Assembly (NCBI RefSeq): GCF_900104745.1
Contig: NZ_LT629732.1
Coordinates: 3,149,981 to 3,213,980, forward strand
DNA length: 64,000 nucleotides
Source: Actinopolymorpha singaporensis
GTDB lineage: Bacteria; Actinomycetota; Actinomycetes; Propionibacteriales; Actinopolymorphaceae
Direction of reading: 5' to 3'
Under the pieces are notes generated by a model that was not told the DNA's origin, made no database searches, and saw only the letters and a program-made list of their open reading frames with translations. Shown one piece after another: positions 7,825-38,884 of this stretch. Each line of letters starts with the position of its first letter. The first letter of the stretch is position 1. Both the position numbers and the translations under genes were made by a program.

Positions 7825-7880
7825 CAGTCGTGGGGGATCAGTCGTGGGGGATCAGTCGTGGGGGATCAGTCGTGGGGGAT
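7825..7880 (+). repeat. Four perfect 14-bp tandem repeats at the 3' end of an LCP gene
   Basis: The unit CAGTCGTGGGGGAT occurs four times without interruption (7825-7838, 7839-7852, 7853-7866, 7867-7880). The copy nearest the gene encodes the last residues of the LCP protein (IPHD), and the stop codon lies across the junction with the next copy; the remaining copies are untranslated. Confidence 0.97.
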
Positions 7881-9299
7881 CAGGCTGGGCGGGATCGGTC
7901 CGCCGTCGCGGAGCGCATGGAAGAGGTTGAGCGCCCGCTGGCGGTCCCAGCGGACCGCGCTTCCGACCGGTGTGCTCACCGAGGTGCTGGAGACCGGCAC
8001 GGTGAGCGTCGTACCGCTGCCGGACGACAGCGACCGCATCGCCAGCCCGAACCGCGCCATGTCGACCACCGTCGTGCCCTCGCCGACGGTCAGCGCGTCG
8101 CCCGCGGACAGCCCGACCCGGGTGTAGCGGATCGGGTTGACGATCGTGCCGGGGCTCGCGGTCTTCTTCACCACCGCGGACAGGAACTGCCGCTGACGCT
8201 CCACCCGGCCGAGGTCGCCCTTCGGGTCGAAGTAGCGGGCACGGACGTAGCCCAGGGCGTTCTTGCCGTCGAGATTCTGGCAGCCGGCCGGCAGGTCGAT
8301 GTGCGCCTTCTCGTCCTTGATCGCCTTGGGCAGGCACATGTTGACGCCGCCGAGCCCCTCGACCACGCCGACGAAGCCACCGAAGCCGATCTCGACGTAG
8401 CTGTCCATCCGCAGGCCGGTGGCGTTCTCCACCGTCTCGGTGAGGAGCTTGGGGCCGCCGATGGAGAAGGCGGCGTTGATCTTGTTCCGGCCGTGTCCGG
8501 GGACCGGGACGTAGGAGTCGCGGGGCAGGGACACCAGCGTCGGCGAACCGGCGAGGCTCGGCACGTGCAGGATCATGATCGTGTCCGTGCGCTGACCGGC
8601 CGCGCGCCCGGTGCCCAGGGCGTTGCGCTGCTCGGCGGTGAGGCCCTGCCTGCTGTCGGAGCCGACCAGCAGGAAGTTGGTGCCCGAGCCGTTCGCGGGG
8701 CGTTCGGCGGCCGGTTCGTACGGCACCTTGGTGACCCGGCTCCAGGCGACGACGGGTACGCCGATCAGGATGATCAGCCAGGCGACGAGCAGGAAGAGGA
8801 GAACCCGCCGCAGCCGGATCCCGGACCTTCGGCGAGGTCGCCGGGGCTCGGGCAGCAGCCGGCCACCCGGGCCCCTGGCCGGTGGGGCGGCGCGGCCGCC
8901 ACCGCGGGGACGACCGGACTGCTCCCGCGGGGTCGACCGGCCGCGGTCGTCGCGGGGATCGGAGTACTCGTCCCGATGGTCGTTGCCGTAGCCGTAGTCG
9001 TTGGAGTACTGGTCGCGACCTTCGCCGGCGTGTCCGGCGTACTCACCGCGGCCACCGCCGCGCTGTGAACCCGGCGGGGGACCCGGGGGGTACTGTCCCC
9101 GCTCGCGGTCAGGCCGGGAACGGGTGGGCATCGCCCTGGTGGCCTCCTCCGGCGGCGCCTCGCCCCGGCGGGCTCGGGAGCGGTTCTCGCGCGCGGATCG
9201 CTCCCGGCCGGCTCCGTCGTAGAGCCAGCCGTACTGTGCGGAATCGCGACCTGCGTCGTCGGGCTGACGCGGTCGTTGCGGGCGGCCGGCGTTCGGCAT
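7866..9299 (-). CDS. LytR-CpsA-Psr (LCP) family phosphotransferase
   Basis: A 477-residue LCP protein. LCP enzymes transfer undecaprenyl-linked glycopolymers such as teichoic acids or arabinogalactan to peptidoglycan on the outer face of the membrane. An unusually long, charged, low-complexity cytoplasmic tail (1-160, rich in Arg, Gly, Asp, Pro) precedes one membrane segment (166-186) and the LCP domain from about 207. Characteristic residues are GSDSR (213-217), TDTIM, LVSLPRDSYV, KINAAFSIGG and YVRARYFDPKGDLGRVERQ. The C terminus ends in a 14-bp tandem repeat. The minus-strand TACGGT hexamer six bases upstream of the ATG suggests a leaderless transcript. It is divergent from a second LCP gene. 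Confidence 0.9.
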   Translation of the reverse strand: MPNAGRPQRPRQPDDAGRDSAQYGWLYDGAGRERSARENRSRARRGEAPPEEATRAMPTRSRPDRERGQYPPGPPPGSQRGGGRGEYAGHAGEGRDQYSNDYGYGNDHRDEYSDPRDDRGRSTPREQSGRPRGGGRAAPPARGPGGRLLPEPRRPRRRSGIRLRRVLLFLLVAWLIILIGVPVVAWSRVTKVPYEPAAERPANGSGTNFLLVGSDSRQGLTAEQRNALGTGRAAGQRTDTIMILHVPSLAGSPTLVSLPRDSYVPVPGHGRNKINAAFSIGGPKLLTETVENATGLRMDSYVEIGFGGFVGVVEGLGGVNMCLPKAIKDEKAHIDLPAGCQNLDGKNALGYVRARYFDPKGDLGRVERQRQFLSAVVKKTASPGTIVNPIRYTRVGLSAGDALTVGEGTTVVDMARFGLAMRSLSSGSGTTLTVPVSSTSVSTPVGSAVRWDRQRALNLFHALRDGGPIPPSLIPHD

Positions 9300-9311: not shown

Positions 9312-9404
9312 CCCGTTCGGCCTGGATCCGGCACATCCGGTCAGATGACGTCCGGCTCGGCGTGGCGATGATGATCACGTCACCCGATGTGTTGGTATGC
9401 CGCC

Positions 9405-11156
9405 ATGACGGGGTGGGACCAGCGGCATGGGCCGCGCTCGGGGGATGTCCGCGGCCGGCCGAGCGCCGGGCGGCGTCCTCGTCCCTCCCGCACCCCCGCG
9501 TTCTCCCGCGACACCGCCTCGTCCCGCGACACCGCCTCGTCCGGCCGGTTGCGGCCGACGGTGACGCAAAGGTCGCCCGGAGGTGGTGCCGGCGGCCGCG
9601 ACGACCCTCGCCGGAACGACCGTCGCCGGGACGACCTGCGGCGCGGTGCCCCACGGCGAGACCCCGAGAGCGGCCGGTGGTGCCGGCGGGCGGTCTGCCT
9701 GCTGATGATGACGCTGGTGGCGCCCGGCTCGGCGCAGTTGGTGGCGGGCAACCGTGCGGTGGGGAAGGTCGCGCTGCGGGTGGCGGTGGCCATACTCTCC
9801 GTCGCCGTACTGCTGGGACTGGTGGGACTGGTCTCCCTGCGCACCCTGGTGTCCCTGATCTCCAACCCCGACGTGCTCCGCTTCGGCCAGATCGTGCTGG
9901 TCCTCGTGGCCGTGGGCTGGCTGGCGCTGTTCGTGGACGCCTGGCGGCTCGGGCGCCCGCTCCGGATGCCGCAGAAGCTGCGGCTGACCTCGACCGTCAC
10001 CATGGTGGCCGCGTCCGTACTCGCGGTGAGCCTGGTGCTCACCTCGGCCCACTACGTCGGGGTGGCCCGCACCTCCATCTCCCGGATCTTCGCGGGCACC
10101 ACCGCGACCGACCCGACCGCCGGGCGGTACAACCTGCTGCTGCTCGGGGCCGACGCCGGCAAGGACCGGGTGGGCCTGCGCCCGGACAGCATCACGCTGG
10201 TGTCCATCGACGAGCGGACCGGCCGGGCCGCGATGTTCAGCTTTCCCCGCAACCTCCAGCGGGTGCCGTTCCCACCCGGCACGGTGATGCACAAGCAGTT
10301 CCCGAACGGCTTCGACTGCGGTGACGAGTGCCTGCTGAACGCCGTCTACACCTGGGCAACCGACCACAAGCAGCTGTTCCCCGGCGACTCGAACCCCGGC
10401 ATCACCGCCACCGAGGACGCGATCCGGCAGTTGACCGGACTGCGGGTCAACTACTACGCACTGATCGACATGGGGGGCTTCGAGCAGCTGGTCGACGCGG
10501 TCGGTGGCGTACGGGTGAACGTCAGGGCCGACGTGCCGATCACCGGCCGGGACGGTGCACTGCGCGGCGTCATCAAGGCAGGCGACCAGCGACTGGATGG
10601 TTACCACGCGTTGTGGTACTCCCGGTCGCGGGCGACCACCAGCGACTACGACCGGATGGCCCGGCAGCGCTGTGTGATGGCCGCCATGTTGCACCAGCTG
10701 GACCCGTCCACCGTGCTGCTGAAGTTCCAGAAGATCGCCGAGGCCGGGGAGCAGATCGTCTCCACCGACATCCCCGCCAGCGAGCTGGACACCATGGTCG
10801 ACCTCGCGCTGAAGGCGAAGAGGCAGAAGATCGTCTCGGTGCAGTTCGTGCCACCGCTGATCAAGACGGCGCGGCCGGACTTCTCGGTGATCAGGGAGAA
10901 CGTGAGCGCCGCGATCGAGGCGTCCAGGGCAGCGGCCGGCCCCACTCCCACGGCGAAGTCCGCGGGGAAGCCCGGATCTGGCGCGGACCAGGGATCGGGT
11001 TCGGACGCCGGCGGTACGTCGGAGTCCGGCGGAAGCGGCGGCGGTACCAGCGGACGCGGTGGCGGCGGACGCGGTGGCGGCAGCGGCAGCGGCGGATCGG
11101 CAGACAACGGGACGCCGGCCGTGCACGAGCTCGGCGAGGTCTGCTCCGCGGGCTGA
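9405..11156 (+). CDS. LCP family phosphotransferase with four-segment membrane anchor
   Basis: A second LCP protein, 583 residues, with a different membrane part. After an Arg-rich cytoplasmic tail of about 95 residues come four hydrophobic segments, beginning at VCLLMMTLVAPG, VALRVAVAILSV, IVLVLVAVGWLAL and VTMVAASVLAVS. The LCP domain follows, with LLLLGADAGKDR, RPDSITLVSID, FSFPRNL, LLNAVYTW and WYSRSRATTSDYDRMARQR. The C-terminal 80 residues are a Gly/Ser-rich tail. The domain should act outside the membrane on a lipid-linked polymer, as for the divergent LCP neighbour. The start at ATG 9405 is chosen over 9387 because it matches the family length; neither has a strong ribosome site. Confidence 0.88.
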   Translation: MTGWDQRHGPRSGDVRGRPSAGRRPRPSRTPAFSRDTASSRDTASSGRLRPTVTQRSPGGGAGGRDDPRRNDRRRDDLRRGAPRRDPESGRWCRRAVCLLMMTLVAPGSAQLVAGNRAVGKVALRVAVAILSVAVLLGLVGLVSLRTLVSLISNPDVLRFGQIVLVLVAVGWLALFVDAWRLGRPLRMPQKLRLTSTVTMVAASVLAVSLVLTSAHYVGVARTSISRIFAGTTATDPTAGRYNLLLLGADAGKDRVGLRPDSITLVSIDERTGRAAMFSFPRNLQRVPFPPGTVMHKQFPNGFDCGDECLLNAVYTWATDHKQLFPGDSNPGITATEDAIRQLTGLRVNYYALIDMGGFEQLVDAVGGVRVNVRADVPITGRDGALRGVIKAGDQRLDGYHALWYSRSRATTSDYDRMARQRCVMAAMLHQLDPSTVLLKFQKIAEAGEQIVSTDIPASELDTMVDLALKAKRQKIVSVQFVPPLIKTARPDFSVIRENVSAAIEASRAAAGPTPTAKSAGKPGSGADQGSGSDAGGTSESGGSGGGTSGRGGGGRGGGSGSGGSADNGTPAVHELGEVCSAG

Positions 11157-11332: not shown

Positions 11333-12379
11333 GTGACGGGAACACCCCAGCCCGTAACCGCCGACACCGACTGGCCGGGCGTCTCGGTGGTGATGCCGGT
11401 CCGCAACGAGGAGCGCCATCTGCGGACCTCCGTCGGACAGGTCCTGGCCCAGGACTACCCCGGCCGGCTGGAACTGGTGATCGCCGTCGCCCCGTCCCGT
11501 GACCGTACGCAGCAGATCGCCGAGGAGATCGTCGCCGCCGACCCCCGCGTCCGATTGGTGCAGAACCCCGTAGGCATCGCGCCGACCGGGCTGAACGCCG
11601 CGATCGGGCAGGCGCGGTACGAGGTCGTCGTACGCGTCGACGGACACGGCATCCTGTCGCCGGGCTACATCCGGCGTGCGGTCGAACTCCTCGCCGAGAC
11701 CGGGGCGGACAACGTGGGCGGGGTGATGGCGGCCGAGGGCGAGCCCGGCTTCGAGGAGGCGGCCGCCAAGGCGTACGTCAGCCCGATCGGGCTCGGTGGC
11801 GCCCGCTTCCACGTCGGCGGCGAGGCCGGACCGGTCGACTCGGTTTACCTCGGTGTCTTCCGCCGGGAGACCCTCGAGCGGCTGGGCGGGTTCGACGACA
11901 CGTTCGTCCGGGCGCAGGACTGGGAGCTCAACCACCGGATCCGCCAGGCGGGCGGAACGGTGTGGTTCAGCCCCGAGCTCCGGGTGACCTACCACCCTCG
12001 GTCAAGGCTGTCCGACCTGGTGCGGCAGTTCTACCTCACCGGCAAGTGGCGCCGCGCGATCGGCCGTACCCACCCCGGCACGTTCAACTACCGCTACCTC
12101 GCCCCGCCGCTGGCCGTCCTCGGTTGTGCGCTGGGACTCGTGGCCGGGCTGGTCGGCCTGCTCGCCGGCCTGCCGTGGCTGCTGCTCGGCTTCGTACTCC
12201 CCGCCGGCTACCTGCTCCTGGTGCTCGCCGCCTCCCTGGTGGAGGGGCGGGGGATGTCCCTGCGCGGCCGGCTGTGGCTGCCCGTGGTGGTGGCCACCAT
12301 GCACCTGACGTGGGGGACCGGTTTCCTCGTGAGCCCGCGCTCGCTGGGCCGGCGTACGCCCGAGCCCGCGAGGACCTGA
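11333..12379 (+). CDS. Family 2 glycosyltransferase, ExoA-like, membrane-attached
   Basis: A 348-residue GT2 enzyme resembling succinoglycan-type ExoA. The GT-A domain shows VVMPVRNEERHL near 20, RVDGHG with the metal-binding Asp at 103, the acceptor region GGFDDTFVRAQDWELNHRI (185-203), then three C-terminal hydrophobic segments (about 258-280, 282-302 and 315-333). It should transfer a sugar from a nucleotide donor to a lipid-linked acceptor at the inner membrane face. The GTG at 11333 follows GAAAGGGCC. It lies 176 bases downstream of the LCP gene and converges with the ABC exporter genes, suggesting participation in the same polymer pathway. Confidence 0.82.
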   Translation: MTGTPQPVTADTDWPGVSVVMPVRNEERHLRTSVGQVLAQDYPGRLELVIAVAPSRDRTQQIAEEIVAADPRVRLVQNPVGIAPTGLNAAIGQARYEVVVRVDGHGILSPGYIRRAVELLAETGADNVGGVMAAEGEPGFEEAAAKAYVSPIGLGGARFHVGGEAGPVDSVYLGVFRRETLERLGGFDDTFVRAQDWELNHRIRQAGGTVWFSPELRVTYHPRSRLSDLVRQFYLTGKWRRAIGRTHPGTFNYRYLAPPLAVLGCALGLVAGLVGLLAGLPWLLLGFVLPAGYLLLVLAASLVEGRGMSLRGRLWLPVVVATMHLTWGTGFLVSPRSLGRRTPEPART

Positions 12380-12432: not shown

Positions 12433-13254
12433 TCAGTGGCTGGTGGCCGAGCTGTAGGCCTTGACGACCGACTCCGCGTCGCCGTCCATCTTGATCTGGC
12501 CCTTGTCCAGCCAGATCACCCGGCTGCAGGTCTCGGTCACGACGTCCAGGCTGTGGCTGACCAGGAACACCGAGCCGGCCTCGTCGCGCAGCTCGCGGAT
12601 GCGTTGCTCGCTGCGCTTGCGGAACTCCGCGTCACCGGTGGCCAGCGCTTCGTCGATCATCAGCACGTCGTGGCTCTTCACCGCCGCGATCGCGAACCGG
12701 AGCCGCTGCTGCATGCCCGAGGAGTAGGTCTGCATGGGCAGGTCGATGAAGTCGCCGATGCCGGCGAACTCCACGATGTCGTCGTAGCGTTCTCTCGCCT
12801 GCTCGGGTGTGAGGCCCATGGCCAGGCAACCGAGGATGACGTTGCGTTCACCGCTCAGACCGGTCATCAGGGCGGCATTGACGCCGAGCAGGGTGGGCTG
12901 CCCGTCGGTGAACACCGCGCCCTGGGTGGGCGGCAGCAGGCCCGCGATGGCGCGGAGCAGGGTGCTCTTGCCGGACCCGTTGCGTCCGATCAGCCCGACG
13001 GACTCACCGCGGCGTACGGTGAACGTCACCCCGCGGATGGCCTTCACCTCGCGCAGGGCCGGAGAGTTCTGCCGCTTGAGGATCCGCTTGAACGCCGCGG
13101 GTGCGTTGCCCTTGCCCGCGGTCGCGCCGTAGACGCGGTAGGTGATGTGCAGGTCGTCCACGATCACGGTCGGCGGGGTGTCCCGCGAGGGGGGCTCGGG
13201 GCGCACGGCCCGGCCGTGAGCGTCGGTCAGGTCGCCGGTCAGATGCTCAGCCAC
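12433..13254 (-). CDS. ABC transporter ATP-binding protein, polysaccharide/teichoic-acid exporter (Wzt/TagH-type)
   Basis: A 273-residue ATPase of the polymer-export subfamily. Walker A is GRNGSGKST (90-98), the signature SSGMQQ begins at 178, and Walker B is VLMIDEA with Asp201/Glu202; the H-loop lies in SHSLDV. There is no long C-terminal carbohydrate-binding domain of the E. coli O9a Wzt kind, so the protein resembles TagH/KpsT. It overlaps the permease gene by eight bases and is the last gene of the minus-strand polyol-phosphate operon. The cargo is expected to be a lipid-linked glycopolymer made by the upstream enzymes. Confidence 0.9.
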   Translation of the reverse strand: MAEHLTGDLTDAHGRAVRPEPPSRDTPPTVIVDDLHITYRVYGATAGKGNAPAAFKRILKRQNSPALREVKAIRGVTFTVRRGESVGLIGRNGSGKSTLLRAIAGLLPPTQGAVFTDGQPTLLGVNAALMTGLSGERNVILGCLAMGLTPEQARERYDDIVEFAGIGDFIDLPMQTYSSGMQQRLRFAIAAVKSHDVLMIDEALATGDAEFRKRSEQRIRELRDEAGSVFLVSHSLDVVTETCSRVIWLDKGQIKMDGDAESVVKAYSSATSH

Positions 13255-14113
13255 GGCCGTACTTCTCCTCGGCTCCCCAGAAGTACCAGAACCCGACCAC
13301 GAACCCGACGATCGCCCAGGCGACGGCGAGCTGCCAGGCGTGGTGCGGTGCGTCGTGGCGTTCGATGAACGCGTCCCGGACCAGCTCGATGTAGACCGAG
13401 GCCGGGTTGGCCATCATGATCTCTCTCATCGTGGGGTTGTGTACTCGCTGCGGGATCAGGAAGAACACGCCGGAGAAGTAGAGCCAGACGCGGGTGATGA
13501 ACGGCAGCAGCTGGCTGATGTCCGGGACCGTGGCGCCGATCCGGGCCATGGTCAGGCTCAGCCCGATGTTGAACATCGTCTGCAGCGCCAGCGCGGGGAC
13601 AACCAGCAGCCACGACCAGGTGAGTGGCTCGCCGGTAGCCAGCACGATCAGGCAGAGCACGACCATCGACACCAGCATCTGCTGCAGCTCGACGATCGTG
13701 GAGGAGAACGGCAGCGTCGCCCGCGGGAAGTGCAGCGCCCTGATCATGGCGAGGTTTCCGGAGATCGCGCGGGCCCCGGAGGTGACCGAACGCGTGCAGA
13801 ACGACATCACGAAGACGCCGGTGACCAGGAACGCGGTGAAGTTGTCGATGTTGTGCTTGGTGTTGAACAGCACGCCGAAGATCAGGTAGTAGACCGCGGC
13901 GTTCATAAGCGGCGTGAGGACCTGCCAGAGCTGGCCGAGGCGGGCTCCGGAGTACATCGTCACGGTCCGCGAGGTCGCGAACGCGGTGATGAAGTGCCGT
14001 CGCTGCCACAGCTGCCGGACGTAGTCACCCAGCGGCGGACGAGCCGAACTGGGCGCCAGGCCGTACTGCGCGGCGAGTTCGGCCGGTGAGGCGGAGGTCG
14101 TGGTGGTGGTCAC
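13247..14113 (-). CDS. ABC transporter permease, polysaccharide exporter (Wzm/TagG-type)
   Basis: A 288-residue ABC-2 type integral membrane protein. Six hydrophobic segments are visible after a cytoplasmic N terminus ending in YVRQLWQRRHFI, which has the amphipathic interface-helix character typical of Wzm/TagG. It includes AVYYLIFGVLF, FLVTGVFVMSF and FSGVFFLIPQ. Together with the ATPase encoded by the overlapping gene it should flip and export a lipid-linked polymer. The GTG start at 14113 lies 79 bases after the GT2 gene. Confidence 0.9.
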   Translation of the reverse strand: MTTTTTSASPAELAAQYGLAPSSARPPLGDYVRQLWQRRHFITAFATSRTVTMYSGARLGQLWQVLTPLMNAAVYYLIFGVLFNTKHNIDNFTAFLVTGVFVMSFCTRSVTSGARAISGNLAMIRALHFPRATLPFSSTIVELQQMLVSMVVLCLIVLATGEPLTWSWLLVVPALALQTMFNIGLSLTMARIGATVPDISQLLPFITRVWLYFSGVFFLIPQRVHNPTMREIMMANPASVYIELVRDAFIERHDAPHHAWQLAVAWAIVGFVVGFWYFWGAEEKYGRG

Positions 14114-14192
14114 CGATGCCTCCCGGAATGCACCGAACGCATGCCGTCGAGATTACGACATGCCGGGCGGTCGGCCGGGTTCTCCCAGATCG

Positions 14193-15074
14193 TCATACCA
14201 GTGGAGGCCTTCCCAGGCGGGTCATGCGCCACACGGTGCGCCAGGCGATCGGTTTGCGCCTGCCGCACGGGGTGCGGAGGCCTTCCAGCAAGCCGGTCGA
14301 CCAGGCGCTCAGCCCCGAGAGCGTACGCGTACGAGCCAGGGTCAGTGCCACCCAGGTGGCCAGATAGGCGACCGCGACCGGTTTGGGGAGGTTGCGTTTG
14401 GCCAGCCAGACGCGGTTGCGGGCGTTGAGCCGGAAGTACGTCTGGTGCCGGGTCGGCGACGTCGCCGGGTGGCAGAGCACGGAGTCGGCGTCGTAGCGGA
14501 TCCGCCAGCCGGCGTCCAGGGCACGCCAGGCGAGGTCGGTCTCCTCGTGGGCGTAGAAGAACGCCGCCGGGAACGTTCCCACGTCGTCGAAGACCGCCTG
14601 CCGGATGGCCGCGGCGCCGCCCAGGAACGTCGTCACCTCCGACGACTCGCCCGGGTCGCCCACGCGCACCCGCGGCACGTGCCGGCGCTGGGTCACCCCG
14701 GACTCGGGGTCGACGATGCGGAACGACACGATGCCCAGCCGGGGGTCCGCGGCGAACAGTTCGCGCAGCCGCTCGGCCGTGGTCGGCCGGGGAAGCCACC
14801 CGTCGTCGTCGACGAACATCACGATGTCGGCGTTCGCCGCGGCCAGGCCGGCGTTGCGCCCGCCCGGAATGCCGGCGTTGGCCGGCAGGGTCACCACCTT
14901 GACACCGTCCGGCACTTCCGGGGCGGGCACTCCGTTGGCCACCACCACGATCTCGACCGGATCGCCGAGCTGGTCGGAGACGCTGCGGATCGCCCGGTGG
15001 AGCTCGGCCGGCCGGTCGCCCATGGTGAGGAAGACGGCGGCGATCCGCAGCGGCGCGTCCGGCGTACTGCTCAC
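14193..15074 (-). CDS. Family 2 glycosyltransferase
   Basis: A 293-residue soluble GT2 (rhamnosyltransferase-like) enzyme. The N-terminal strand IAAVFLTMGDRP is followed by NAGIPGGRNAGL, the metal-binding MFVDDDG (Asp89-91), GGAAAIRQAVF and the catalytic region YAHEETDLAWRALDAGW (174-190). The donor sugar is unknown. The GTG at 15074 overlaps the stop of the upstream phosphatidyltransferase gene (GTGA); the first internal Met would cut the first beta strand, so the GTG is the right start. It is the fifth gene of the polyol-phosphate operon and probably adds a sugar to the product of that pathway. Confidence 0.85.
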   Translation of the reverse strand: MSSTPDAPLRIAAVFLTMGDRPAELHRAIRSVSDQLGDPVEIVVVANGVPAPEVPDGVKVVTLPANAGIPGGRNAGLAAANADIVMFVDDDGWLPRPTTAERLRELFAADPRLGIVSFRIVDPESGVTQRRHVPRVRVGDPGESSEVTTFLGGAAAIRQAVFDDVGTFPAAFFYAHEETDLAWRALDAGWRIRYDADSVLCHPATSPTRHQTYFRLNARNRVWLAKRNLPKPVAVAYLATWVALTLARTRTLSGLSAWSTGLLEGLRTPCGRRKPIAWRTVWRMTRLGRPPLV

Positions 15075-15859
15075 GAGAGCCGCCGGGACACCAGGATGCT
15101 CACCAGGTGCAGCACGACCTGGATGCCCGCGATCACCGCGACCGCGACCGTCAGCACGTGGGTGGCGAGGAGGTTGCCCAGCAGGGCGTCGGCGATCGCG
15201 GCCACCACGATCACCAGGGACAGCTCGATGGCCAGGATGAGCCGGTAGAACTTCAGGACGAGGGCCACCCGCCGGGCCTTGGCCAGCGCCGACCCGCGCG
15301 GCTCCACCGCGTCCTCGGTCACCGCCTCCTTGCCGCTGCGGGCACGGGCGATGTCGACCAGGTCGGTCTCGGCCTTGATCAGGACCGCTCCGAGGGCGGC
15401 GGCCAGGCCGAGGACGGCGTACCCGGTCGGGTGCACCTGCGCGGCCCGGAACCCCAGGCCGACGAGGACCGCCGCCTCGCACATGTAGTGGCCCACCCGG
15501 TCGAGGTAGACGCCGGTGATGCTGGTCCGCCCGGTGTAGCGGGCGACCTCGCCGTCGCTGCAGTCGAGCAGGAGGTAGAGCTGGACCAGCAGGGCGGCGA
15601 GGATCGCGCCCGGCAGGCCGGGGATCAGCAGCGCGAAGCCGGCCGCGACACCGGCCACGATCATCAGGCCGGTGAGCTGGTTGGGGGACAGGCCGGTGGC
15701 GAGGAACCCGCGGGTGGCGTACAGCGAGATCCGGCGCATGTAGAGCCGGCCCGCCCAGTGCTCGCCGCTGCGGCGTTCGAGCAGGCCCGGCGGTTGCGCC
15801 TTGGCGCGCAGCTCAGCGATCGTCGGCAGGTCGGTCATGAGTACGTCCGCTCTCCTCAC
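15071..15859 (-). CDS. CDP-alcohol phosphatidyltransferase with altered fourth catalytic Asp
   Basis: A 262-residue membrane enzyme of the CDP-alcohol phosphatidyltransferase family, which displaces CMP from a CDP-alcohol with another alcohol. The signature DCSDGEVAR (99-107) is followed by G116 and Asp120, but the position of the fourth Asp, normally the catalytic base, is His124 (LDRVGH). The sister enzyme at 17789 keeps all four. Several hydrophobic segments follow. The start may be the GTG at 15859, overlapping the upstream stop, or the ATG at 15838. It lies between a glycerol-1-phosphate dehydrogenase-like gene and a GT2 gene, so a phosphoglycerol or phosphopolyol acceptor is more likely than an ordinary phospholipid; that is inference. 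Confidence 0.82.
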   Translation of the reverse strand: MRRADVLMTDLPTIAELRAKAQPPGLLERRSGEHWAGRLYMRRISLYATRGFLATGLSPNQLTGLMIVAGVAAGFALLIPGLPGAILAALLVQLYLLLDCSDGEVARYTGRTSITGVYLDRVGHYMCEAAVLVGLGFRAAQVHPTGYAVLGLAAALGAVLIKAETDLVDIARARSGKEAVTEDAVEPRGSALAKARRVALVLKFYRLILAIELSLVIVVAAIADALLGNLLATHVLTVAVAVIAGIQVVLHLVSILVSRRLS

Positions 15860-16938
15860 CTTTCGCGGCTTTCACGCAGTTGCCGGGCGAACTCCCGCAC
15901 GGCGGCCGCCACCCCTGCCTGGTCGAGGTCGCGGTGTTCCAGGATGGTGAACCTACCCGGGCGGGTCTGCGGCGCCCGGGCCACGGCCGCGGTGAACTCC
16001 TCCCAGGTGAAGCCCAGCCCGGCCGGGTCGACGGGGAGTCCGTGCCGCACCAGGCACCGGGTGATCAGTTCGCCACGGGCCCGGCCGTCGGGATCGTCCC
16101 ACAGTGTGGACGCGAAGGCCGCGCCGACGCCGACCTGCTCACCGTGCGCGCCGGAGCGGGCCGGAAACAGCAGGTCGATGGCGTGGGAGATCTCGTGGCA
16201 GGCGCCGCTGCAGGGCCGGCTGGACCCCGCGACCACCATCGCGATGCCGGACAGCACCAGGCCCTCGGCGAGGACGCGGAGGAAGTCGTCGTCGGTCAGC
16301 GTCCCCGGGTGGTGCAGGACCGCCTCGGCGGCCGTGCGGGCCAGCGCCACCGCCAGCCCGTCCAGCGGCTCGCCGTGCACGTCGTGGGCGAGCTCCCAGT
16401 CGGCGATCGCGGACAGGTTGGAGGCCACCTCACCGATTCCGGCCCGGACCGAGCGGGCCGGCGCCCGGCGTACGACGTCCAGGTCGACCACCACCGCCAA
16501 CGGCGCGGCGACCCCGTAGGAGCCGCGGCCGGCGTCGTTGTCCAGGATGCTGACCGGCGAGCCGATGCCGTCGTGGGCGAGGTTGGTGGCCACCGCGACC
16601 ATGGGCAGGCCGACCCGGGCCGCGGCGAACTTCGTGGCGTCCAGCACCTTTCCGCCGCCGATCCCGACGATCGCGTCGTACGACCCGCCGCGGACGCGGG
16701 AGGCGAGGTCCAGCGCGGCGTCGACGGTGCCGTCTGACACGGGGAAGAAGTCGGCTTCGGTGAGGTAGGGGCGTACCTGGGCGGCCAGCGCCTCACCCGA
16801 GCGCGGCCCGACGGCGATGGCCACCCGGCCGGATGCCGAGATGCGCTGGTCGGCGAGCAGGCCGGCGAGGTCGGCGATGGCGCCCCGGCGTACGTCGACG
16901 ACGACGGGTGTGGGGATCATGCGGGCGAGCAGTGGCAC
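15856..16938 (-). CDS. sn-Glycerol-1-phosphate dehydrogenase-like enzyme (AraM/EgsA family)
   Basis: A 360-residue member of the iron/zinc alcohol dehydrogenase superfamily, closest to glycerol-1-phosphate dehydrogenases, which reduce dihydroxyacetone phosphate to the archaeal-type sn-glycerol-1-phosphate. Supporting motifs are GIGGGKVLDATK (92-103), NLAHDGIGSP (119-128), the acidic metal-site residue Glu170 in GIGEVASN, CHEISHAID (247-255) and AHGEQVG with His265. In the operon it follows a sugar-type nucleotidyltransferase and precedes a CDP-alcohol transferase, so its product may be activated with CTP and built into a polymer. Reduction of another keto-phosphate is possible. The GTG start overlaps the upstream TAG by one base; the Met at position 7 is an alternative. 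Confidence 0.78.
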   Translation of the reverse strand: MPLLARMIPTPVVVDVRRGAIADLAGLLADQRISASGRVAIAVGPRSGEALAAQVRPYLTEADFFPVSDGTVDAALDLASRVRGGSYDAIVGIGGGKVLDATKFAAARVGLPMVAVATNLAHDGIGSPVSILDNDAGRGSYGVAAPLAVVVDLDVVRRAPARSVRAGIGEVASNLSAIADWELAHDVHGEPLDGLAVALARTAAEAVLHHPGTLTDDDFLRVLAEGLVLSGIAMVVAGSSRPCSGACHEISHAIDLLFPARSGAHGEQVGVGAAFASTLWDDPDGRARGELITRCLVRHGLPVDPAGLGFTWEEFTAAVARAPQTRPGRFTILEHRDLDQAGVAAAVREFARQLRESRER

Positions 16939-17792
16939 TAGCGCTCCAGCCCGGGCTCGGCCGTGGTGCCTGGGGCCGGGTCAGGGGTCGGGTCGGGGGC
17001 CGGGTCTGGGTCGGTGCCGGCGATGGCCGCCAGTACCTCGGCCGACCGGGCCAGGTCGGCGTGGTCGTCGATCTCGACCCACGGCAGGTCGCCGATCGGG
17101 GCGACGTCGACCCGGAAGCCCGCGTCGACGGCCGCCTGGTAACCGTCCTCGTAGTAGAGGGTGGGGTCCTTGCGCCACGTCTCCTCGAGCGCGGCGGTGA
17201 GCGGCTCGGCCGCTGCCGGCCCGATCAGGCTCACCCCGATGTACTCCCCGGTGGCGGACCCCGGGTCGAGCTCCTTGGTGATCCGGGTGACGCCGCGGTC
17301 GGGCGACCACACCACCTTCATCTCCTCCTCGGCCAGCGGCTTCACCGTGTCCAGGGCGAGCAGCAGGTCGGGGGCGGCACCGGCGCCGGGGCTCACCGCG
17401 GCGAGCAGGGCGTGTTCGACCTGGACCGGGTGCACCGTGTCTCCGTTCGCGAGCAGGCAGCCCTGCGGGAAGAGGTGACGCGCGCACCACAGCGAGTAGC
17501 AGTTGTTCCAGGTGGTGGCCCGGTCGTTGTGGATGAGGTCCAGGGTGACGCCGTGGGTGCGTTCGAGATGGTCGCGGCGCTCGTGGACGGCCTGCGCGGC
17601 ATAGCCGACCACCACCGCCACGTCGGTCACCCCGACGCGGGCGAAGTTGGCGAGGATCGTGTCCAGTGGCGTGAGCGGGTAGTCGGCCTCCGCCCGGTGC
17701 TCGCCCGCCAGCGGCACCAGCGCCTTGGGGAGGGTGTCGGTGTACGGACGCAGTCGCCGGCCGGTGCCGGCGGCGAGGACCAGGCCGATCAT
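16938..17792 (-). CDS. Nucleotidyltransferase (sugar/polyol-phosphate cytidylyltransferase type)
   Basis: A 284-residue NTP_transferase-fold enzyme. The N terminus has the nucleotide loop LAAGTGRRLRPYT and PKALVPL; later DRATTWNNCYSLWC, LANGDTVHP and ELDPGSATGEYIGVSLI carry the acidic metal-site residues, and the C terminus reads DLPWVEIDDHADLARS. This pattern resembles phosphocholine, inositol-1-phosphate and other polyol-phosphate cytidylyltransferases. With the neighbouring dehydrogenase and two CDP-alcohol transferases it probably makes a CDP-polyol. The last 30 residues are Pro/Asp-rich and look dispensable. It overlaps the upstream gene by ATGA and the downstream gene by one base. Confidence 0.8.
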   Translation of the reverse strand: MIGLVLAAGTGRRLRPYTDTLPKALVPLAGEHRAEADYPLTPLDTILANFARVGVTDVAVVVGYAAQAVHERRDHLERTHGVTLDLIHNDRATTWNNCYSLWCARHLFPQGCLLANGDTVHPVQVEHALLAAVSPGAGAAPDLLLALDTVKPLAEEEMKVVWSPDRGVTRITKELDPGSATGEYIGVSLIGPAAAEPLTAALEETWRKDPTLYYEDGYQAAVDAGFRVDVAPIGDLPWVEIDDHADLARSAEVLAAIAGTDPDPAPDPTPDPAPGTTAEPGLER

Positions 17793-19708
17793 CGGGCGGC
17801 TCCAGCGGTGGCTTCGGCGGCCGGTGCCCCGGTCGCGTCACGGTCACGGACCTGCGCCGCCGTGGCGGTGACGCTCTCGGCGACGAACACCACCGCGAGC
17901 GCGATCGCGAGGACGGTCAGCCCCACCTGGAACACCGTCGCGCCGCCGAGTGCGAGCAGCGCGATGACCAGCATCCGGCCGTCGTGCCCGCCGGTGACGA
18001 CGGTGAGCCGGCGGCGGGGATGGGTGCCGTCCTCGCTCAGGCGGTAGATGGTGTCGTAGTGGTGGAACGCGCACGCAGCGACGTAGCCGAACGCCGCCGG
18101 CAGTGCGGCCGGGGCGAGGGCGGCGGCGAGGACGATCACCAGGGCGTACTCCGCGGCACGGAACGTCGGCGGGAGCACCCAGTCGGCCCAGCCGTTGAGC
18201 GGCTGCCGGCTGGCGAACCCCACGATCAGGACGTACCACAGCACGCCGAGCAGCACCCAGCCCACGCCGACGGCCGGGATCACCGCGAGGGAGAACGTCA
18301 GCGCCAGCAGGGCGACGAGCGCGGCCAGCGGTGCCGGCAGCGAGCGGCCCGGCAGGGAGGAGTGCACGATCCAGCCGAGCGGCCCGACGTCGACCAGCGC
18401 GCCCAGGGACAGCCCGGCCGACTTCGACCAGGGCCGGCGTACCCGGCGCAGGCTGCGCAGGAAACGGCCGAGGAAGGCGTACGCCGCGGCGATCACGCCG
18501 ACCGCGAGCAGCACCACGAACACCACCTGCGGAGTGGTGAAGGCGACCAGCAGGCAGATCAGCGCCGACCGCTCGCCCTGGGGAAGGACGATCGCCCGGC
18601 GCAGCCAGACCTTCCAGCGGCTTCCGCTGATGCGCGCCTGCACCTGGTCGGCAAGCGCCGGCGCGTCCTCGGCGGGTCCGGCGCTGACCTGCTCGTACGC
18701 CGCGTGCATCTGGTGCCGGACGGTCTGGAACGCCATCGCCGCCGCCGCCAGCCACCAGATGTGCGGGTCGCCGTCACGGGCTGCCCCGATCGCCAGCCCG
18801 GCGAACAGGGCGTACTCCTTCACCCGGTCGAAGGTGAGGTCCATCCGGGCGCCGAGCCTGCTGAAGGAGACGGTGTAGCGGGCGAGGTCGCCGTCGATGC
18901 AGTCCAGCGAGAACGCCGCGTGGAACAGCAGCGCGCCCAGCACGTAGCCCGCCCTCGTGCCGGTGGCGACCGTCGCCGCGGCGCCGAGGGCGACGATCAG
19001 GGACAGGATCGTGACGTGGTTGGGGCCGAGCCCGAGCCGGGCGAACCACCGGGCGGCGTACCCGGAGTAGCTGCGGACGAAGAACGTCGTGAACGCGGTG
19101 TCCCCGGCCTTGACCGCGCTCTTCAGCCGGAACGCCTCCTCGTCGACGGCGCGGGCCCGCGCCTCCAGGGCCGCCCGCTCCTGCGGGGACTCGGCGATGC
19201 CGGCCACCAGCGGGGCGGGGTCGGTCCTCGCCACGGTGACGTTCGCGGCGAGCGCGTCGGCGACCCGGGCGATGTCCACGGGCGAGTCGTCCAGCGGCGA
19301 GGACTTCGGGGGCGCGGACGGCGGGGACGTGACGTCCGCGCGCGGCGCCGCCGTCGCTGCGGTCGTCGCGGTGACGGCGTTCAGGGCGTCGACCAGGTGG
19401 TGGCGGGCCGACGGTGCCACGGCGAGCGTTCCGGGCCCGGCGAGCACCTCCGGCCGCGAGTCGCACACGGCCCGTCGCAGTGCGTGCAGGTGGCCCACGA
19501 ACCGGCTGTCGACGAGTGCGACCCGTCCGCGTGGCGCGGAGGCCACCGCCGCCGGCAGGTGTGCGAACGCGTCCACCTCGACCACGTCGTAACCCAGCGC
19601 ACGCAGGTGGCGCGCGACGGGCAGGGGCCCCGGTCCGGCGGAGACGACGGGTCCGACGAGGAACGCGGTCGGCAGCGGGATCACCCCTGTCTGGTGGAGT
19701 CGGCTCAT
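17789..19708 (-). CDS. CDP-alcohol phosphatidyltransferase fused to N-terminal unknown domain and C-terminal DUF5941-type membrane domain
   Basis: A 639-residue multidomain protein and the first gene of the polyol-phosphate operon. Residues 10-110 form an alpha/beta domain (FLVGPVVSAGPGPLPVARHL, RVALVDSRFVGH) in the position where dimyo-inositol-phosphate synthases carry a cytidylyltransferase, but without its nucleotide loop. After a linker, residues 195-400 form a CDP-alcohol transferase with intact DCIDGDLAR (269-277), Asp290 and Asp294. The remaining 240 residues hold about six hydrophobic segments of the actinobacterial DUF5941 type. The ATG at 19708 has a poor ribosome site; a GTG at 19684 is an alternative, because a TAGGAT hexamer overlaps the ATG. 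The product is unknown. Confidence 0.78.
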   Translation of the reverse strand: MSRLHQTGVIPLPTAFLVGPVVSAGPGPLPVARHLRALGYDVVEVDAFAHLPAAVASAPRGRVALVDSRFVGHLHALRRAVCDSRPEVLAGPGTLAVAPSARHHLVDALNAVTATTAATAAPRADVTSPPSAPPKSSPLDDSPVDIARVADALAANVTVARTDPAPLVAGIAESPQERAALEARARAVDEEAFRLKSAVKAGDTAFTTFFVRSYSGYAARWFARLGLGPNHVTILSLIVALGAAATVATGTRAGYVLGALLFHAAFSLDCIDGDLARYTVSFSRLGARMDLTFDRVKEYALFAGLAIGAARDGDPHIWWLAAAAMAFQTVRHQMHAAYEQVSAGPAEDAPALADQVQARISGSRWKVWLRRAIVLPQGERSALICLLVAFTTPQVVFVVLLAVGVIAAAYAFLGRFLRSLRRVRRPWSKSAGLSLGALVDVGPLGWIVHSSLPGRSLPAPLAALVALLALTFSLAVIPAVGVGWVLLGVLWYVLIVGFASRQPLNGWADWVLPPTFRAAEYALVIVLAAALAPAALPAAFGYVAACAFHHYDTIYRLSEDGTHPRRRLTVVTGGHDGRMLVIALLALGGATVFQVGLTVLAIALAVVFVAESVTATAAQVRDRDATGAPAAEATAGAAR

Positions 19709-20774: not shown

Positions 20775-21809
20775 ATGACCTGGCTCGTCACCGGAGGCGC
20801 CGGCTTCATCGGCGCGCACGTCGTCCATGCTCTTCATGCCGCCGGAGAACAGATCGTGGTGCTCGACGATCTGTCCACCGGGGTGCCCGCCCGGATCGCC
20901 GACCTCGACGACGTTCCGCTCGTCCGGGGTTCGGTGCAGGCGACCAGCCTGGTTGCCAAACTGTTGCGGGAGTACGAGATCAGCGGTGTCGTGCACGTGG
21001 CCGCGAAGAAGCAGCCTGGGGAGTCGGTCGACAACCCGCTGCTCTACTACCGCGAGAACGTCGGCGGCCTCGAGTCGCTGCTGCGGGCGATGACCGACGT
21101 CGGCGTTGACGCGCTGGTCTTCTCCTCCAGCGCCTCCACCTACGGCGACCAGGAAACCGACGTCCTGACCGAGGACGCGACGTGCCGGCCGGTCTCTCCG
21201 TACGGCGAGACCAAGCTCGTCGGGGAGTGGATGATCGCGGACGTGGCCCGGAGCACCGGACTGCGGTACGTCTGCCTGCGCTACTTCAACGCCGCCGGTG
21301 CCGCCGCTCCCGAGCTCGCCGACACCGGCGCGTTCAACCTCATCCCGATGGTGTTCGAACGCCTGACCTCCGGCCTGCCGCCGAAGATCTTCGGCGACGA
21401 CTACCCGACCCCGGACGGCACCACCATCCGCGACTACATCCACGTCGGCGACATCGCCTCGGCGCACGTCGCCGCGGCCCGGCACCTCACCGCGGGCCAC
21501 GAGGTGCGCAAGGTCCTCAACGTAGGTACGGGCAGGGGATCGTCCACCCGCGAGATCGTGGAGACCATCCTCGACGTCTCCGGCCACACCGACCTCAAGC
21601 CCGAGGTGCTCGCCCGCCGGCCCGGAGACCCGGCGGTGTCGATCGCGGGCGCGGACCGGATCCGCGAGGTGCTCGGCTGGTCGGCCGAACACGACATGCG
21701 GTCCACGGTCGCGGCGGCCTGGCAAGGATGGCTGTTCCACCATCCGGAGGCCGGTCGCGAGAACGGGAAGGCGGCCGGGGGTGCGGAGGCAGGAGCCCGG
21801 GATGAGTGA
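20775..21809 (+). CDS. galE: UDP-glucose 4-epimerase
   Basis: A 344-residue short-chain dehydrogenase/reductase-type epimerase that interconverts UDP-glucose and UDP-galactose through a bound NAD+. The Rossmann motif is TGGAGFIG (6-13), the catalytic Ser lies in SSSASTYG (117-124) and the YxxxK pair is Tyr143/Lys147 (PYGETK). The substrate region includes NAAGA and RDYIHVGDIASAH. It supplies UDP-galactose to the local envelope glycosyltransferases. The last eight bases overlap the start of the acetoacetyl-CoA synthetase gene, exactly where that gene's 15-bp repeat begins, an odd partner for a sugar epimerase. The -10 box just upstream suggests leaderless transcription. Confidence 0.9.
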   Translation: MTWLVTGGAGFIGAHVVHALHAAGEQIVVLDDLSTGVPARIADLDDVPLVRGSVQATSLVAKLLREYEISGVVHVAAKKQPGESVDNPLLYYRENVGGLESLLRAMTDVGVDALVFSSSASTYGDQETDVLTEDATCRPVSPYGETKLVGEWMIADVARSTGLRYVCLRYFNAAGAAAPELADTGAFNLIPMVFERLTSGLPPKIFGDDYPTPDGTTIRDYIHVGDIASAHVAAARHLTAGHEVRKVLNVGTGRGSSTREIVETILDVSGHTDLKPEVLARRPGDPAVSIAGADRIREVLGWSAEHDMRSTVAAAWQGWLFHHPEAGRENGKAAGGAEAGARDE

Positions 21810-24765: not shown

Positions 24766-24867
24766 GGGCATGGCCAGTGGAGGCCCGCGGATCATCTGCT
24801 GCCACGCTTCGCGACCAATCCGCCACGCCGGGGCGCGTGATCCGCCACGGTGGGCACGAGTCTCCCG

Positions 24868-24873
24868 TAGGCT
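24868..24873 (+). promoter_or_regulatory. -10 hexamer TAGGCT of mannose-1-P guanylyltransferase gene, leaderless spacing
   Basis: TAGGCT is followed by seven bases and the ATG at 24881. The hexamer is identical to that of the divergent TIGR03089 gene about 100 bases away. Confidence 0.5.
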
Positions 24874-24880
24874 CGCGGTC

Positions 24881-26002
24881 ATGCGGTATGCGGTCATCAA
24901 CGCGGGGGGCGCGGGCACAAGGTTGTGGCCGCTCTCGCGCGCAAGCTTCCCGAAGCAGCTGCTGAGCGTCCGGGGCGGCAAGAGCCTGCTCCGGCTCGCC
25001 TACGAGCGGCTGGAGGGCTTCGTCCCCGACGAGCGGATCTTCGTCTGCGCCGGCACCACGCACCAGCAGGTGATCATGGAGCACCTGCCGGAGCTTCCGG
25101 AGGAGAACTTCCTCGGTGAACCGGTCGCCCGCGACACCGCCAACGCGATCGGCCTGGCCTGCGCGGTGATCGTCGAGCGGGATCCGGACGCGGTGGCCGC
25201 GTTCGTCACGGCCGACCACGTGATCGAACCCGTGGAGTCCTTCCGCGAGGCGCTGGGCACCGCGTTCGCCACGGTCGAGGCCCACCCGCAGATGCTGGCG
25301 ACGTTCGGCGTACCGCCCACGTCGGCACACACCGGTCTCGGTTACATCGAACGCGCCGAGCCGCTGCCGGACGCGCCCGGGAGCGCCGGTCCCGGCGGTG
25401 GGCCCGCGGTGTTCGGCGTCACGGCCTTCACCGAGAAGCCGGACGCGGCGACCGCGCAGGCCTACGTCGCCGGCGGCCGTCACCTCTGGAACTCCGGCAT
25501 GTTCGTGTGGCGGGCCGACACCCTGCTCACCCAGCTTCACCGGCACCTGCCGGGCGCCTACGACGGCGTGACCCGGATCGCCAAGGCGTGGGACACCCCC
25601 GAACGCACGACCGTGGCGGAGAAGGCCTACGCCGAGCTGCCCAAGATCAGCATCGACTACGCCGTGATGGAGCCCGCGGCGCGAGGCGAGGACGAGGCCC
25701 GCGTCGTGGTGGTCCCGATGTCGGTCGACTGGATCGACGTCGGCGCCTGGCCGGCCCTGGCGCGCACGCTCGCCAACGACCCGGCCCACAACGCCAGCAA
25801 CGCCGTCACGGTGCTGGTCGACTCCGAGGGCAACATCGTGGTCAGTGACGACCCCGAGCACCTGGTGGCGACCGTCGGACTGCGCGACACGATCGTCGTG
25901 CACACCCCGGACGTCACGATGGTGTGCCCGAAGAACGACGCCGAGCGGGTGAAGGACCTCGTGGCCCGGGTCCGCCAGACCCACGGCGACCGGTACGCCT
26001 GA
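24881..26002 (+). CDS. manC: Mannose-1-phosphate guanylyltransferase
   Basis: A 373-residue GDP-mannose pyrophosphorylase that makes GDP-mannose from mannose-1-phosphate and GTP. The pyrophosphorylase signature GGAGTRLWPLSRASFPKQLL begins at residue 9; FVTADHVI, GYIERAE, FTEKPD, LWNSGMFVW and VDWIDVGAW follow in the expected order. There is no C-terminal isomerase domain, so it is the short type. It corresponds in position to Rv3264c (called manB in mycobacteria) and supplies GDP-mannose together with the phosphomannomutase and isomerase encoded at 38.9-42.9 kb. Confidence 0.9.
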   Translation: MRYAVINAGGAGTRLWPLSRASFPKQLLSVRGGKSLLRLAYERLEGFVPDERIFVCAGTTHQQVIMEHLPELPEENFLGEPVARDTANAIGLACAVIVERDPDAVAAFVTADHVIEPVESFREALGTAFATVEAHPQMLATFGVPPTSAHTGLGYIERAEPLPDAPGSAGPGGGPAVFGVTAFTEKPDAATAQAYVAGGRHLWNSGMFVWRADTLLTQLHRHLPGAYDGVTRIAKAWDTPERTTVAEKAYAELPKISIDYAVMEPAARGEDEARVVVVPMSVDWIDVGAWPALARTLANDPAHNASNAVTVLVDSEGNIVVSDDPEHLVATVGLRDTIVVHTPDVTMVCPKNDAERVKDLVARVRQTHGDRYA

Positions 26003-26869: not shown

Positions 26870-27796
26870 ATGTCCGCGCCGACCGTCGAACGCACCCGCA
26901 CGGTGGTGACCGAAGCTCCGGTCGACCCGGTGGTGACGTTGCGCAGCCTGCGGCGCGGAGGCGGCGACCCCGTGCACCGCACCGCTCCCGACGGCTCGAT
27001 CTGGCGCGGCACCCGGACCCCCGACGGCGTGGCCACCGTGGTGATCTCGGCCCGGCCCGCCGACGGTGCGATCGAGGGACGCGCGTGGGGGCCAGGCGCA
27101 GACTGGATCCTCGACCACCTGCCCGGGCTGGTGGGCGCGGAGGACGACCCGGCCGGCTTCGAGCCCGGCCTCGCGCTGCTGGAACGCCTGCACCGCCGGT
27201 TCGCCGGCTGGCGGGTGTGCCGTACCGGCCTGGTGATGGAGTCCCTGACGCCCGCGATCCTGGAACAGAAGGTCACCTCCACCGAGGCGTGGCGGTCCTG
27301 GCGCGAACTCGTGTGGCGGTTCGGTGAGCGGGCGCCCGGCCCGGCGCCGTTCCCGCTGTGGGTGCAGCCGGACGCCCGTACGCTCGCCGGCCTGCCGTCG
27401 TGGGAGTGGCACCGCGCGGGCGTCGGTCCGCAGCGGGCGCAGACCCTGGTCCGCTGCGCCCGGCTGGCCACCGCCCTGGAGCGTACGGTCGGGCTGGACT
27501 TCGCCGAGGTCGAACGCCGGCTGCGCAGCGTTCCGGGCGTAGGGGTGTGGACCGCGGCCGAGGTGATGCAGCGGGCGCACGGGAACGCCGACGCGGTGTC
27601 GGTGGGCGACTTCCACGTCGCCAAGTCGGTCGGCTGGGCACTCGCCGCCGAGCCGTACGACGACGAGACCATGCTGGCAGTGCTGGAACGCTGGCGCGGT
27701 CATCGGTACCGCGTCACCCGGCTGATCGAACTCGCCGGAATCACTGCACCGCGCCGCGGCCCGCGGTTCGCCCCGCGCGACTACCGAGCGTTCTGA
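26870..27796 (+). CDS. HhH-GPD family DNA glycosylase (AlkA-like)
   Basis: A 308-residue DNA repair glycosylase of the helix-hairpin-helix superfamily, related to 3-methyladenine DNA glycosylase II. The N-terminal half has the mixed strand region of AlkA-type enzymes; the core begins at VMESLTPAILEQKVTS, the hairpin is LRSVPGVGVWTAAEV, and the catalytic Asp lies in SVGDFHVAKSVGW. No C-terminal iron-sulfur cysteines are present, in contrast to endonuclease III. It should excise alkylated bases. The 3' end overlaps the convergent fbiB gene by 16 bases. Confidence 0.82.
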   Translation: MSAPTVERTRTVVTEAPVDPVVTLRSLRRGGGDPVHRTAPDGSIWRGTRTPDGVATVVISARPADGAIEGRAWGPGADWILDHLPGLVGAEDDPAGFEPGLALLERLHRRFAGWRVCRTGLVMESLTPAILEQKVTSTEAWRSWRELVWRFGERAPGPAPFPLWVQPDARTLAGLPSWEWHRAGVGPQRAQTLVRCARLATALERTVGLDFAEVERRLRSVPGVGVWTAAEVMQRAHGNADAVSVGDFHVAKSVGWALAAEPYDDETMLAVLERWRGHRYRVTRLIELAGITAPRRGPRFAPRDYRAF

Positions 27797-29993: not shown

Positions 29994-30217
29994 GCCACCA
30001 GTGTGCCCCCTCCGCATGGCCGGGCTCTCGCCGCGTCTGTCCACAGGCCGGTCGGGACGGATCGGGCGATCTGCGCCATAGTGGTGCCGGTCGCCGGGGG
30101 GCCCGCCGCGACCAGCCGCCCAACGGATCGACTTTGGGCCCACCACGTGGGTCCCCACGTCGGGCCACCGTGTGGGAGGCTGCAGCCCGACATCACACCC
30201 AGATTTGGGGGTAGCAC

Positions 30218-38770: not shown

Positions 38771-38872
38771 CCCGGCGTGAGGCGGCCCTGCCGGGTCGGT
38801 TCGCGCGCACGGTCGGCCGGGGACTTCGCAGCGTGATCGGCGTGCTACGCCTCCGGTGGCGGTTTGGGCAGT

Positions 38873-38878: not shown

Positions 38879-38884
38879 GGCCAG

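Follow-up and report, generated by a model that had tools for sequence, protein, structure and literature searches.

A conserved gene cluster of Actinomycetota that probably makes an archaeal-handed activated glycerol phosphate

What does a relative of the sn-glycerol-1-phosphate dehydrogenases (G1PDH) do in an actinobacterial operon that also encodes a nucleotidyltransferase, two cytidine diphosphate (CDP)-alcohol phosphotransferases, a glycosyltransferase and an ABC exporter? The question is raised by a stretch of 64,000 nucleotides from Actinopolymorpha singaporensis (assembly GCF_900104745.1, contig NZ_LT629732.1, positions 3,149,981 to 3,213,980 of the forward strand), which is called the window here and lies in a genome of 6.4 Mb. 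The seven genes of the operon are designated A, B, D, E, F, G and H (Table 1). Judged from sequence, the cluster probably makes an archaeal-handed activated glycerol phosphate for a wall or membrane polymer and replaces the usual bacterial enzyme TagD, a glycerol-3-phosphate cytidylyltransferase. The operon would both supply CDP-(sn-1)-glycerol and build it into a glycerol-phosphate glycopolymer of teichoic acid type, a reading to which we assign a probability of about 0.5. The first two steps, in which F would make sn-glycerol-1-phosphate (G1P) and G would make CDP-1-glycerol, have good odds of being correct, and the proposal that a polymer is made, exported and attached is about an even call.

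The dehydrogenase and its partner enzyme

F scores 223 bits against the NCBIfam model for G1PDH, 56 bits against that for glycerol dehydrogenase and 33 bits against that for dehydroquinate (DHQ) synthase. An F profile built from 15 relatives was searched against the PDB and matched archaeal G1PDH structures with 188-214 bits, 9h4x with 125 bits and 3ce9, a G1PDH-like protein that bears the name glycerol dehydrogenase, with 222 bits. The other, typical glycerol dehydrogenase structures reached 54-76 bits. F has a C-terminal stretch of the [R/K]PxR[Y/F]T type, as in G1PDH alignments, and both of its active-site His residues are invariant in 51 sequences. Within its family, sequence comparison places F nearer to G1PDH. 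The nearest named relative of the gene is from Actinopolymorpha rutila (96% identity).

The gene upstream, G, encodes a nucleotidyltransferase whose best profile matches are LicC, a CTP:phosphocholine cytidylyltransferase (74 bits), the nucleotidyl transferase 4jd0, which we take to be the IPCT of Thermotoga maritima (70 bits), and PntC (64 bits), while sugar nucleotidyltransferases score 44 bits or less. Many of the motif residues of G are invariant across 14 relatives. By these profiles G is nearest to the cytidylyltransferases that activate phospho- or phosphono-alcohols, and it is predicted to be a candidate CTP:glycerol-1-phosphate cytidylyltransferase.

Distribution of the gene set

The clustering of these genes exceeds chance. 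The core recurs at 100 loci, of which 90 have G, 93 E, 89 D, 91-92 the exporter genes and 82 H, and G and F are spaced by 2 bases in 80 of the 90 loci that have G. In other families the core is again flanked by genes for LytR-CpsA-Psr (LCP) proteins, and related loci repeatedly include GDPD, IspD/TarI-type and Glyphos_transf genes. Strong G orthologues in other classes (loci L151, L152 and L154-L156) retain F, E and D, and in most cases H and the exporter are kept too. At L153, G and H lie beside a TagF-family protein and no F was found nearby. Even remote G homologues from other classes (31-33% identity) are near a G1PDH-like gene at L158, L161, L162 and L163. At the last of these (L163:7648-11311) the genes for a GDPD protein, a TarF-type glycerophosphotransferase (269 bits), a G-like nucleotidyltransferase and a G1PDH-like protein are contiguous; this is a minimal version of the proposed system. 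Weak G1PDH homologues of less than 100 bits that do not adjoin G (L180-L184) were left out of the count.

The first-pass annotation had proposed a search for this gene set across Actinomycetota, and such a search finds it widespread, with F orthologues in 72 of 297 genomes of the class, the core at 100 loci and the G-F pair in several classes. Its conservation in Streptomyces is already known. In 929 Streptomyces genomes araM shows synteny with tagG, tagH and genes for a CDP-alcohol transferase, a family 2 glycosyltransferase (GT2) and a sugar phosphate nucleotidyltransferase, and the accessible part of that 2026 study ties the block to teichoic acid synthesis, without a mechanism (PMC13118837). 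A link to hopanoids was considered and rejected. The Streptomyces cluster adjoins phytoene/squalene-synthase-like genes (L039; also in the accessible part of PMC13118837), no such gene is among the annotated neighbours in the window, and these genes are treated as a lineage-specific neighbourhood.

What decides which alcohol is activated? The partner gene of G appears to track it, since G is paired with a G1PDH-like gene at this locus and with an aminotransferase gene elsewhere. At L157 (6311-9100) and L159 (2976-5707), from other actinobacterial classes, genes for a distant G homologue, a CDP-alcohol phosphotransferase and a class V aminotransferase form a three-gene set that probably serves a phosphonate head group. 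Near the core at L045 (13736-15142) and L057 (5081-6496) an IspD/TarI-type cytidylyltransferase is fused to an SDR reductase, with a Glyphos_transf gene. The fusion presumably resembles the Bcs1/Acs1 enzymes for CDP-ribitol, and a second CDP-polyol is likely at these loci.

The distribution of F was compared with that of the TagF family and of TagD, counted at 100 bits or more, in 297 genomes of the class. F is found in 72 of them, including most Streptomyces sampled, the TagF family in 115 and TagD in 23. F and the TagF family occur together in 68 of the 72 F genomes (p 1e-30 at the genome, 1e-10 at the genus and 3e-4 at the family level), and F and TagD occur together in none of the 297. Among the 115 TagF-positive genomes, 68 have F only, 14 have TagD only, none has both and 33 have neither (p 1e-6). 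The window genome has no match to TagD (TIGR01518), nor is the model's cut-off exceeded in any of 30 G/F genomes. Elsewhere on the same contig (L170:6149-16625, about 5602100-5612600) two divergent Glyphos_transf proteins are encoded beside two TarS-linker glycosyltransferases. This is probably the main teichoic acid locus of the organism, in a genome without TagD.

Phosphotransferases, pathway and alternatives

Both phosphotransferases of the operon have been placed by fold. For E the best PDB profile match is Archaeoglobus AF2299 with 61 bits, the next reaching 31 bits, and AF2299 is also the best match of its predicted fold (Z 17.9). AF2299 holds the glycerol of its CDP-glycerol donor (PMC4634129). 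E is a divergent relative with the CDP-alcohol phosphotransferase fold. H is larger, with a cytidylyltransferase-like domain (residues 10-188), a CDP-alcohol phosphotransferase domain (190-425) and a helical DUF5941 module (430-637). It carries the full signature D1xxD2GxxAR...GxxxD3xxxD4, with Asp at D4, in the window and in all 74 relatives in which the motif was found; Asp also occupies D4 in the five other paralogues of the window genome. The model of the whole protein (predicted local distance difference test 78) aligns with AF2299 over residues 12-420, including the N-terminal cytidylyltransferase-like domain (Z 21), and with cholinephosphotransferase 1 and CEPT1 over 304-309 residues (200-625; root mean square deviation 3.6-3.9, Z about 20). 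E, which is without DUF5941, aligns with the latter two over about 199 residues (Z 10-12). In the whole-protein model DUF5941 appears to sit where eukaryotic cholinephosphotransferase and CEPT1 have their extra C-terminal helices, and this match to the helices of lipid-acceptor enzymes hints that the acceptor of H may be a lipid. In L047 and L053-L056, H is split into a DUF5941-only protein and a CDP-alcohol-transferase-like protein without the catalytic motif.

In the proposed pathway F would reduce dihydroxyacetone phosphate (DHAP) to G1P, and G would join G1P to CTP, forming CDP-1-glycerol, a mirror-image counterpart of what TagD makes. The membrane phosphotransferases H and/or E would then transfer glycerol-1-phosphate to a lipid or lipid-linked acceptor, the GT2 enzyme D would add a sugar, and the chain may be lengthened from the same precursor by TagF-family enzymes whose genes lie elsewhere in these genomes. 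The exporter A/B would carry the product across the membrane, after which LCP proteins could attach it to peptidoglycan; alternatively it may stay lipid-anchored. What the analysis shows is the gene content, the conserved pairing, the placement by family and fold and the distribution across genomes; each chemical step and the handedness of the product we infer. The first-pass annotation had arranged the pathway from DHAP through G1P, CDP-glycerol, polymer and export to the wall. That order, still a deduction, gains support because of the family placements, the phylum-wide pairing of G and F, the absence of PcrB, the co-occurrence with the TagF family, the lack of overlap with TagD and the LCP, GDPD and TarF-type genes nearby.

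The proposed pathway has parallels in several known systems. Like the poly(glycerol phosphate) wall teichoic acid pathway of B. subtilis (TagD-TagB-TagF-TagGH-LCP), it would combine a CDP-glycerol precursor, phosphoglycerol transfer, a TagGH-type exporter, an LCP ligase and decoration by a glycosyltransferase. However, a G1PDH-like enzyme and a LicC-like nucleotidyltransferase replace sn-glycerol-3-phosphate and TagD, CDP-alcohol phosphotransferases stand in for TagB and TagF in the operon, and the opposite stereochemistry is expected. The AraM-PcrB system for heptaprenylglyceryl phosphate in Bacillus and archaeal EgsA share the G1PDH family enzyme, but here PcrB/GGGPS is missing from the window genome and the G1PDH-like gene is operon-linked to a nucleotidyltransferase. 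The logic of nucleotidyltransferase plus CDP-alcohol phosphotransferase is that of Archaeoglobus AF2299 and of IPCT-DIPPS, which make soluble phosphodiesters and have the nearest folds to E and H, with CDP-glycerol as the donor of AF2299; the present genes differ in standing with G1PDH, GT2, exporter and LCP genes, in the C-terminal DUF5941 of H and in the loss of D4 from E. The Streptomyces block described above has the same gene set and is labelled teichoic-acid-related, whereas the accessible part of PMC13118837 gives no pathway, stereochemistry, relation to TagD or distribution beyond Streptomyces. Finally, the type I lipoteichoic acid that LtaS makes in Firmicutes is also a G1P polymer, but its unit comes from phosphatidylglycerol outside the cell and not from CDP-1-glycerol inside it.

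This last comparison bears on the earlier suggestion that an archaeal-type glycerol polymer would be new in bacteria. As a statement about the polymer it does not hold, as Bacillus lipoteichoic acid is already a G1P polymer, with its unit drawn from phosphatidylglycerol (PMC7086022). Novelty would lie in a native bacterial precursor, CDP-1-glycerol, which was judged likely absent from bacteria in a 2021 paper (PMC8262930).

Several observations weigh against the production of CDP-1-glycerol for a teichoic-acid-type polymer. F lies under the cut-off of the curated G1PDH equivalog NF002022 (223 against 413 bits), and for this reason it is called G1PDH-like and not G1PDH; the F-like members at the bacterial loci L163 and L158 are likewise under it, with 261-262 bits. 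The metal ligands of F are presumably Asp, His and His, at positions that we take from the G1PDH family, and the presumed Asp ligand, present in 48 of 51 F homologues, is Glu in the Actinopolymorpha F. Glu fills this role in DHQ synthase. Of 93 E sequences, 60 have Ala and 33 have His at the D4 position of the signature (His in the window), with D1-D3 and the fold kept. D4 is the likely catalytic base, and its change from Asp to Asn almost abolishes the activity of a related enzyme (PMC4634129). An altered mechanism or a phosphate acceptor is possible for the E family; that the acceptor is a phosphate, which would need no base, is speculative. The motif of the H-like protein is missing at five loci (L047, L053-L056). 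Neither a TagB/TagF gene nor one for an initiating sugar transferase lies in the operon itself, and the TagF-like (Glyphos_transf) proteins of the window genome are divergent (33-34 bits). The mutual exclusion of F and TagD is confounded by phylogeny, being not significant at the genus level overall (p 0.19) and reaching p 0.014 among TagF-positive genera; the genomes cannot be treated as independent, and two genera account for 18 of the 23 with TagD. Some F genomes also have weaker TagD-like matches of 50-86 bits. Not scoring these as TagD is a judgement call that bears on the claim of exclusivity, and they were judged to be paralogues because such a match also occurs in several of the genomes that have a genuine TagD.

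Could the activated alcohol be something other than glycerol? F would then reduce a different phosphorylated ketone, G would make a CDP- or NDP-polyol (for example from a four- or five-carbon polyol or inositol), and E and H would transfer it. The score of F under the curated cut-off is in keeping with this, as are the lack of a match of G to any named equivalog, the resemblance of E and H to DIPP/PIP synthases as well, and the IspD/TarI-type enzymes of some related loci, one form of them SDR-fused, which suggest another CDP-polyol in the same polymer. We nevertheless consider a different alcohol rather unlikely: F aligns over its full length with G1PDH and matches glycerol dehydrogenase or DHQ synthase far less well, AF2299, the nearest relative of E, uses CDP-glycerol, and the association with the TagF family and GDPD points to glycerol.

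A lipid or a small molecule as the end product is a separate matter. H may join CDP-1-glycerol to diacylglycerol or a glycolipid, or E may join it to a small acceptor; the product would then be a phosphoglycerolipid or a glycerophosphodiester solute, and no wall polymer would arise. The alignment of H, DUF5941 included, with cholinephosphotransferase and CEPT agrees with such a role; the extra helices in enzymes of this kind may serve a hydrophobic acceptor, and AF2299 and DIPP synthase act on non-lipid substrates (PMC4634129). The close association with Wzm/Wzt-type exporter genes (91-92 of 100 loci) and with a GT2 gene (89 of 100) speaks for a polymer instead, as do the LCP genes nearby in several families and the co-occurrence with the TagF family, and a product of this kind seems unlikely. 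An archaeal-type ether lipid made from G1P, as by AraM and PcrB in Bacillus and with the place of F in the operon incidental, is highly improbable and was rejected: although this is the sole established bacterial role of G1PDH (PMC6431249, PMC5059525) and all three archaeal lipid genes occur in some Streptomyces according to Coleman et al., PcrB/GGGPS, the one established bacterial user of G1P, is absent from the window genome and above cut-off in none of the 30 G/F genomes by a search that detects PcrB in known carriers, and the gene coupled to F is G and not one for a prenyltransferase.

How far might the synthesis of polymer from CDP-1-glycerol extend? Tentatively, a large branch of Actinomycetota that includes most Streptomyces sampled could build its glycerol teichoic acids from CDP-1-glycerol and not from the CDP-3-glycerol of TagD, so that wall and/or lipoteichoic acids would be archaeal-handed. 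H would be a prokaryotic CDP-glycerol:lipid phosphotransferase resembling cholinephosphotransferase and would start or anchor the chain, which would explain a lipoteichoic acid made without LtaS in Streptomyces. We hold this wider proposal to be possible but would not bet on it. The lipoteichoic acid of Streptomyces is a poly(glycerol phosphate) for which no clear LtaS is at hand, with a backbone that resembles the wall polymer (PMC3196553), and the ribitol wall teichoic acid of S. griseus bears a terminal glycerol phosphate (PMC13274773). In the open-access papers searched, no report was found on which absolute configuration the glycerol phosphate of actinobacterial teichoic acids has, which does not prove that there is none.

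If CDP-1-glycerol is indeed made by this operon, bacterial G1P dehydrogenases would have a physiological role other than the ether lipid of Bacillus, CDP-1-glycerol would join bacterial metabolism, an answer would be offered to the question, raised in PMC3196553, of how Streptomyces without LtaS make poly(glycerol phosphate) lipoteichoic acid, and the stereochemical claim, if true, would alter the view of a large group of bacteria. Actinobacterial G1PDH has been listed in a lipid context by Coleman et al. and Yokobori et al. (PMC6431249, PMC5059525), and the lipid-divide debate reads bacterial G1PDH genes as hints of archaeal-type lipids (PMC6431249); in Actinomycetota the product may enter a wall polymer. 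The handedness of glycerol phosphate is directly testable, as a stereospecific enzyme, GlpQ, which is specific for sn-glycerol-3-phosphate, exists.

The locus and its neighbours

The first-pass annotation had placed seven minus-strand genes here, and all seven are present with coordinates and domain matches that agree. Their overlaps, described as one to eight bases for most, measure 8 bases for A/B, 4 for D/E, 4 for E/F, 1 for F/G and 4 for G/H; the sole gap, of 79 bases, separates B and D. Two LCP genes and another GT2 gene had been described as facing the operon. All three exist, but only LCP2 and GT2b face it, LCP1 being on the operon strand. By domain models both a TagGH-type exporter and an LCP ligase are present at the locus. 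The C-terminal sugar-binding domain is not present in the ATPase A.

Table 1. Genes of the operon and its neighbourhood, with positions counted from the first nucleotide of the window
Gene	Product or family	Position	Strand	Domain or model evidence
A	ABC exporter ATPase, Wzt/TagH type	12433-13254	minus	PF00005; top NCBIfam models are teichoic acid/galactan export ATPases
B	ABC-2 permease, Wzm/TagG type	13247-14113	minus	PF01061; NF050109 galactan permease 59 bits
D	Family 2 glycosyltransferase	14193-15074	minus	PF00535
E	CDP-alcohol phosphotransferase, AF2299 type	15071-15859	minus	PF01066 (CDP-OH_P_transf)
F	sn-Glycerol-1-phosphate dehydrogenase-like enzyme	15856-16938	minus	Fe-ADH_2; G1PDH model 223 bits
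G	Predicted CTP:phospho-alcohol cytidylyltransferase	16938-17792	minus	NTP_transferase; LicC/PntC profile matches
H	CDP-alcohol phosphotransferase with DUF5941	17789-19708	minus	PF01066, PF19365
GT2b	Second family 2 glycosyltransferase, conserved neighbour	11333-12379	plus	PF00535; at 12/100 loci
LCP2	LytR-CpsA-Psr glycopolymer ligase	9387-11156	plus	PF03816
LCP1	LytR-CpsA-Psr glycopolymer ligase	7866-9299	minus	PF03816
	GalE-type UDP-glucose 4-epimerase, divergent neighbour	20775-21809	plus	TIGR01179 322 bits
	UDP-glucose/GDP-mannose dehydrogenase family, loosely associated neighbour	4567-5883	minus	Pfam; comparable gene at L044

A role in sugar supply is possible for the GalE-type gene. Further along the window, mannose-1-phosphate guanylyltransferase-, phosphomannomutase- and phosphosugar isomerase-like genes (24770-26002, 38864-40264 and 40605-41654) would make up a GDP-mannose supply. 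Two genes for the F420 cofactor, an F420 ligase-like gene and CofD, overlap at 27781-30158, and a DUF5719 protein (36022-37566) follows a large GT2-domain protein (32705-36025).

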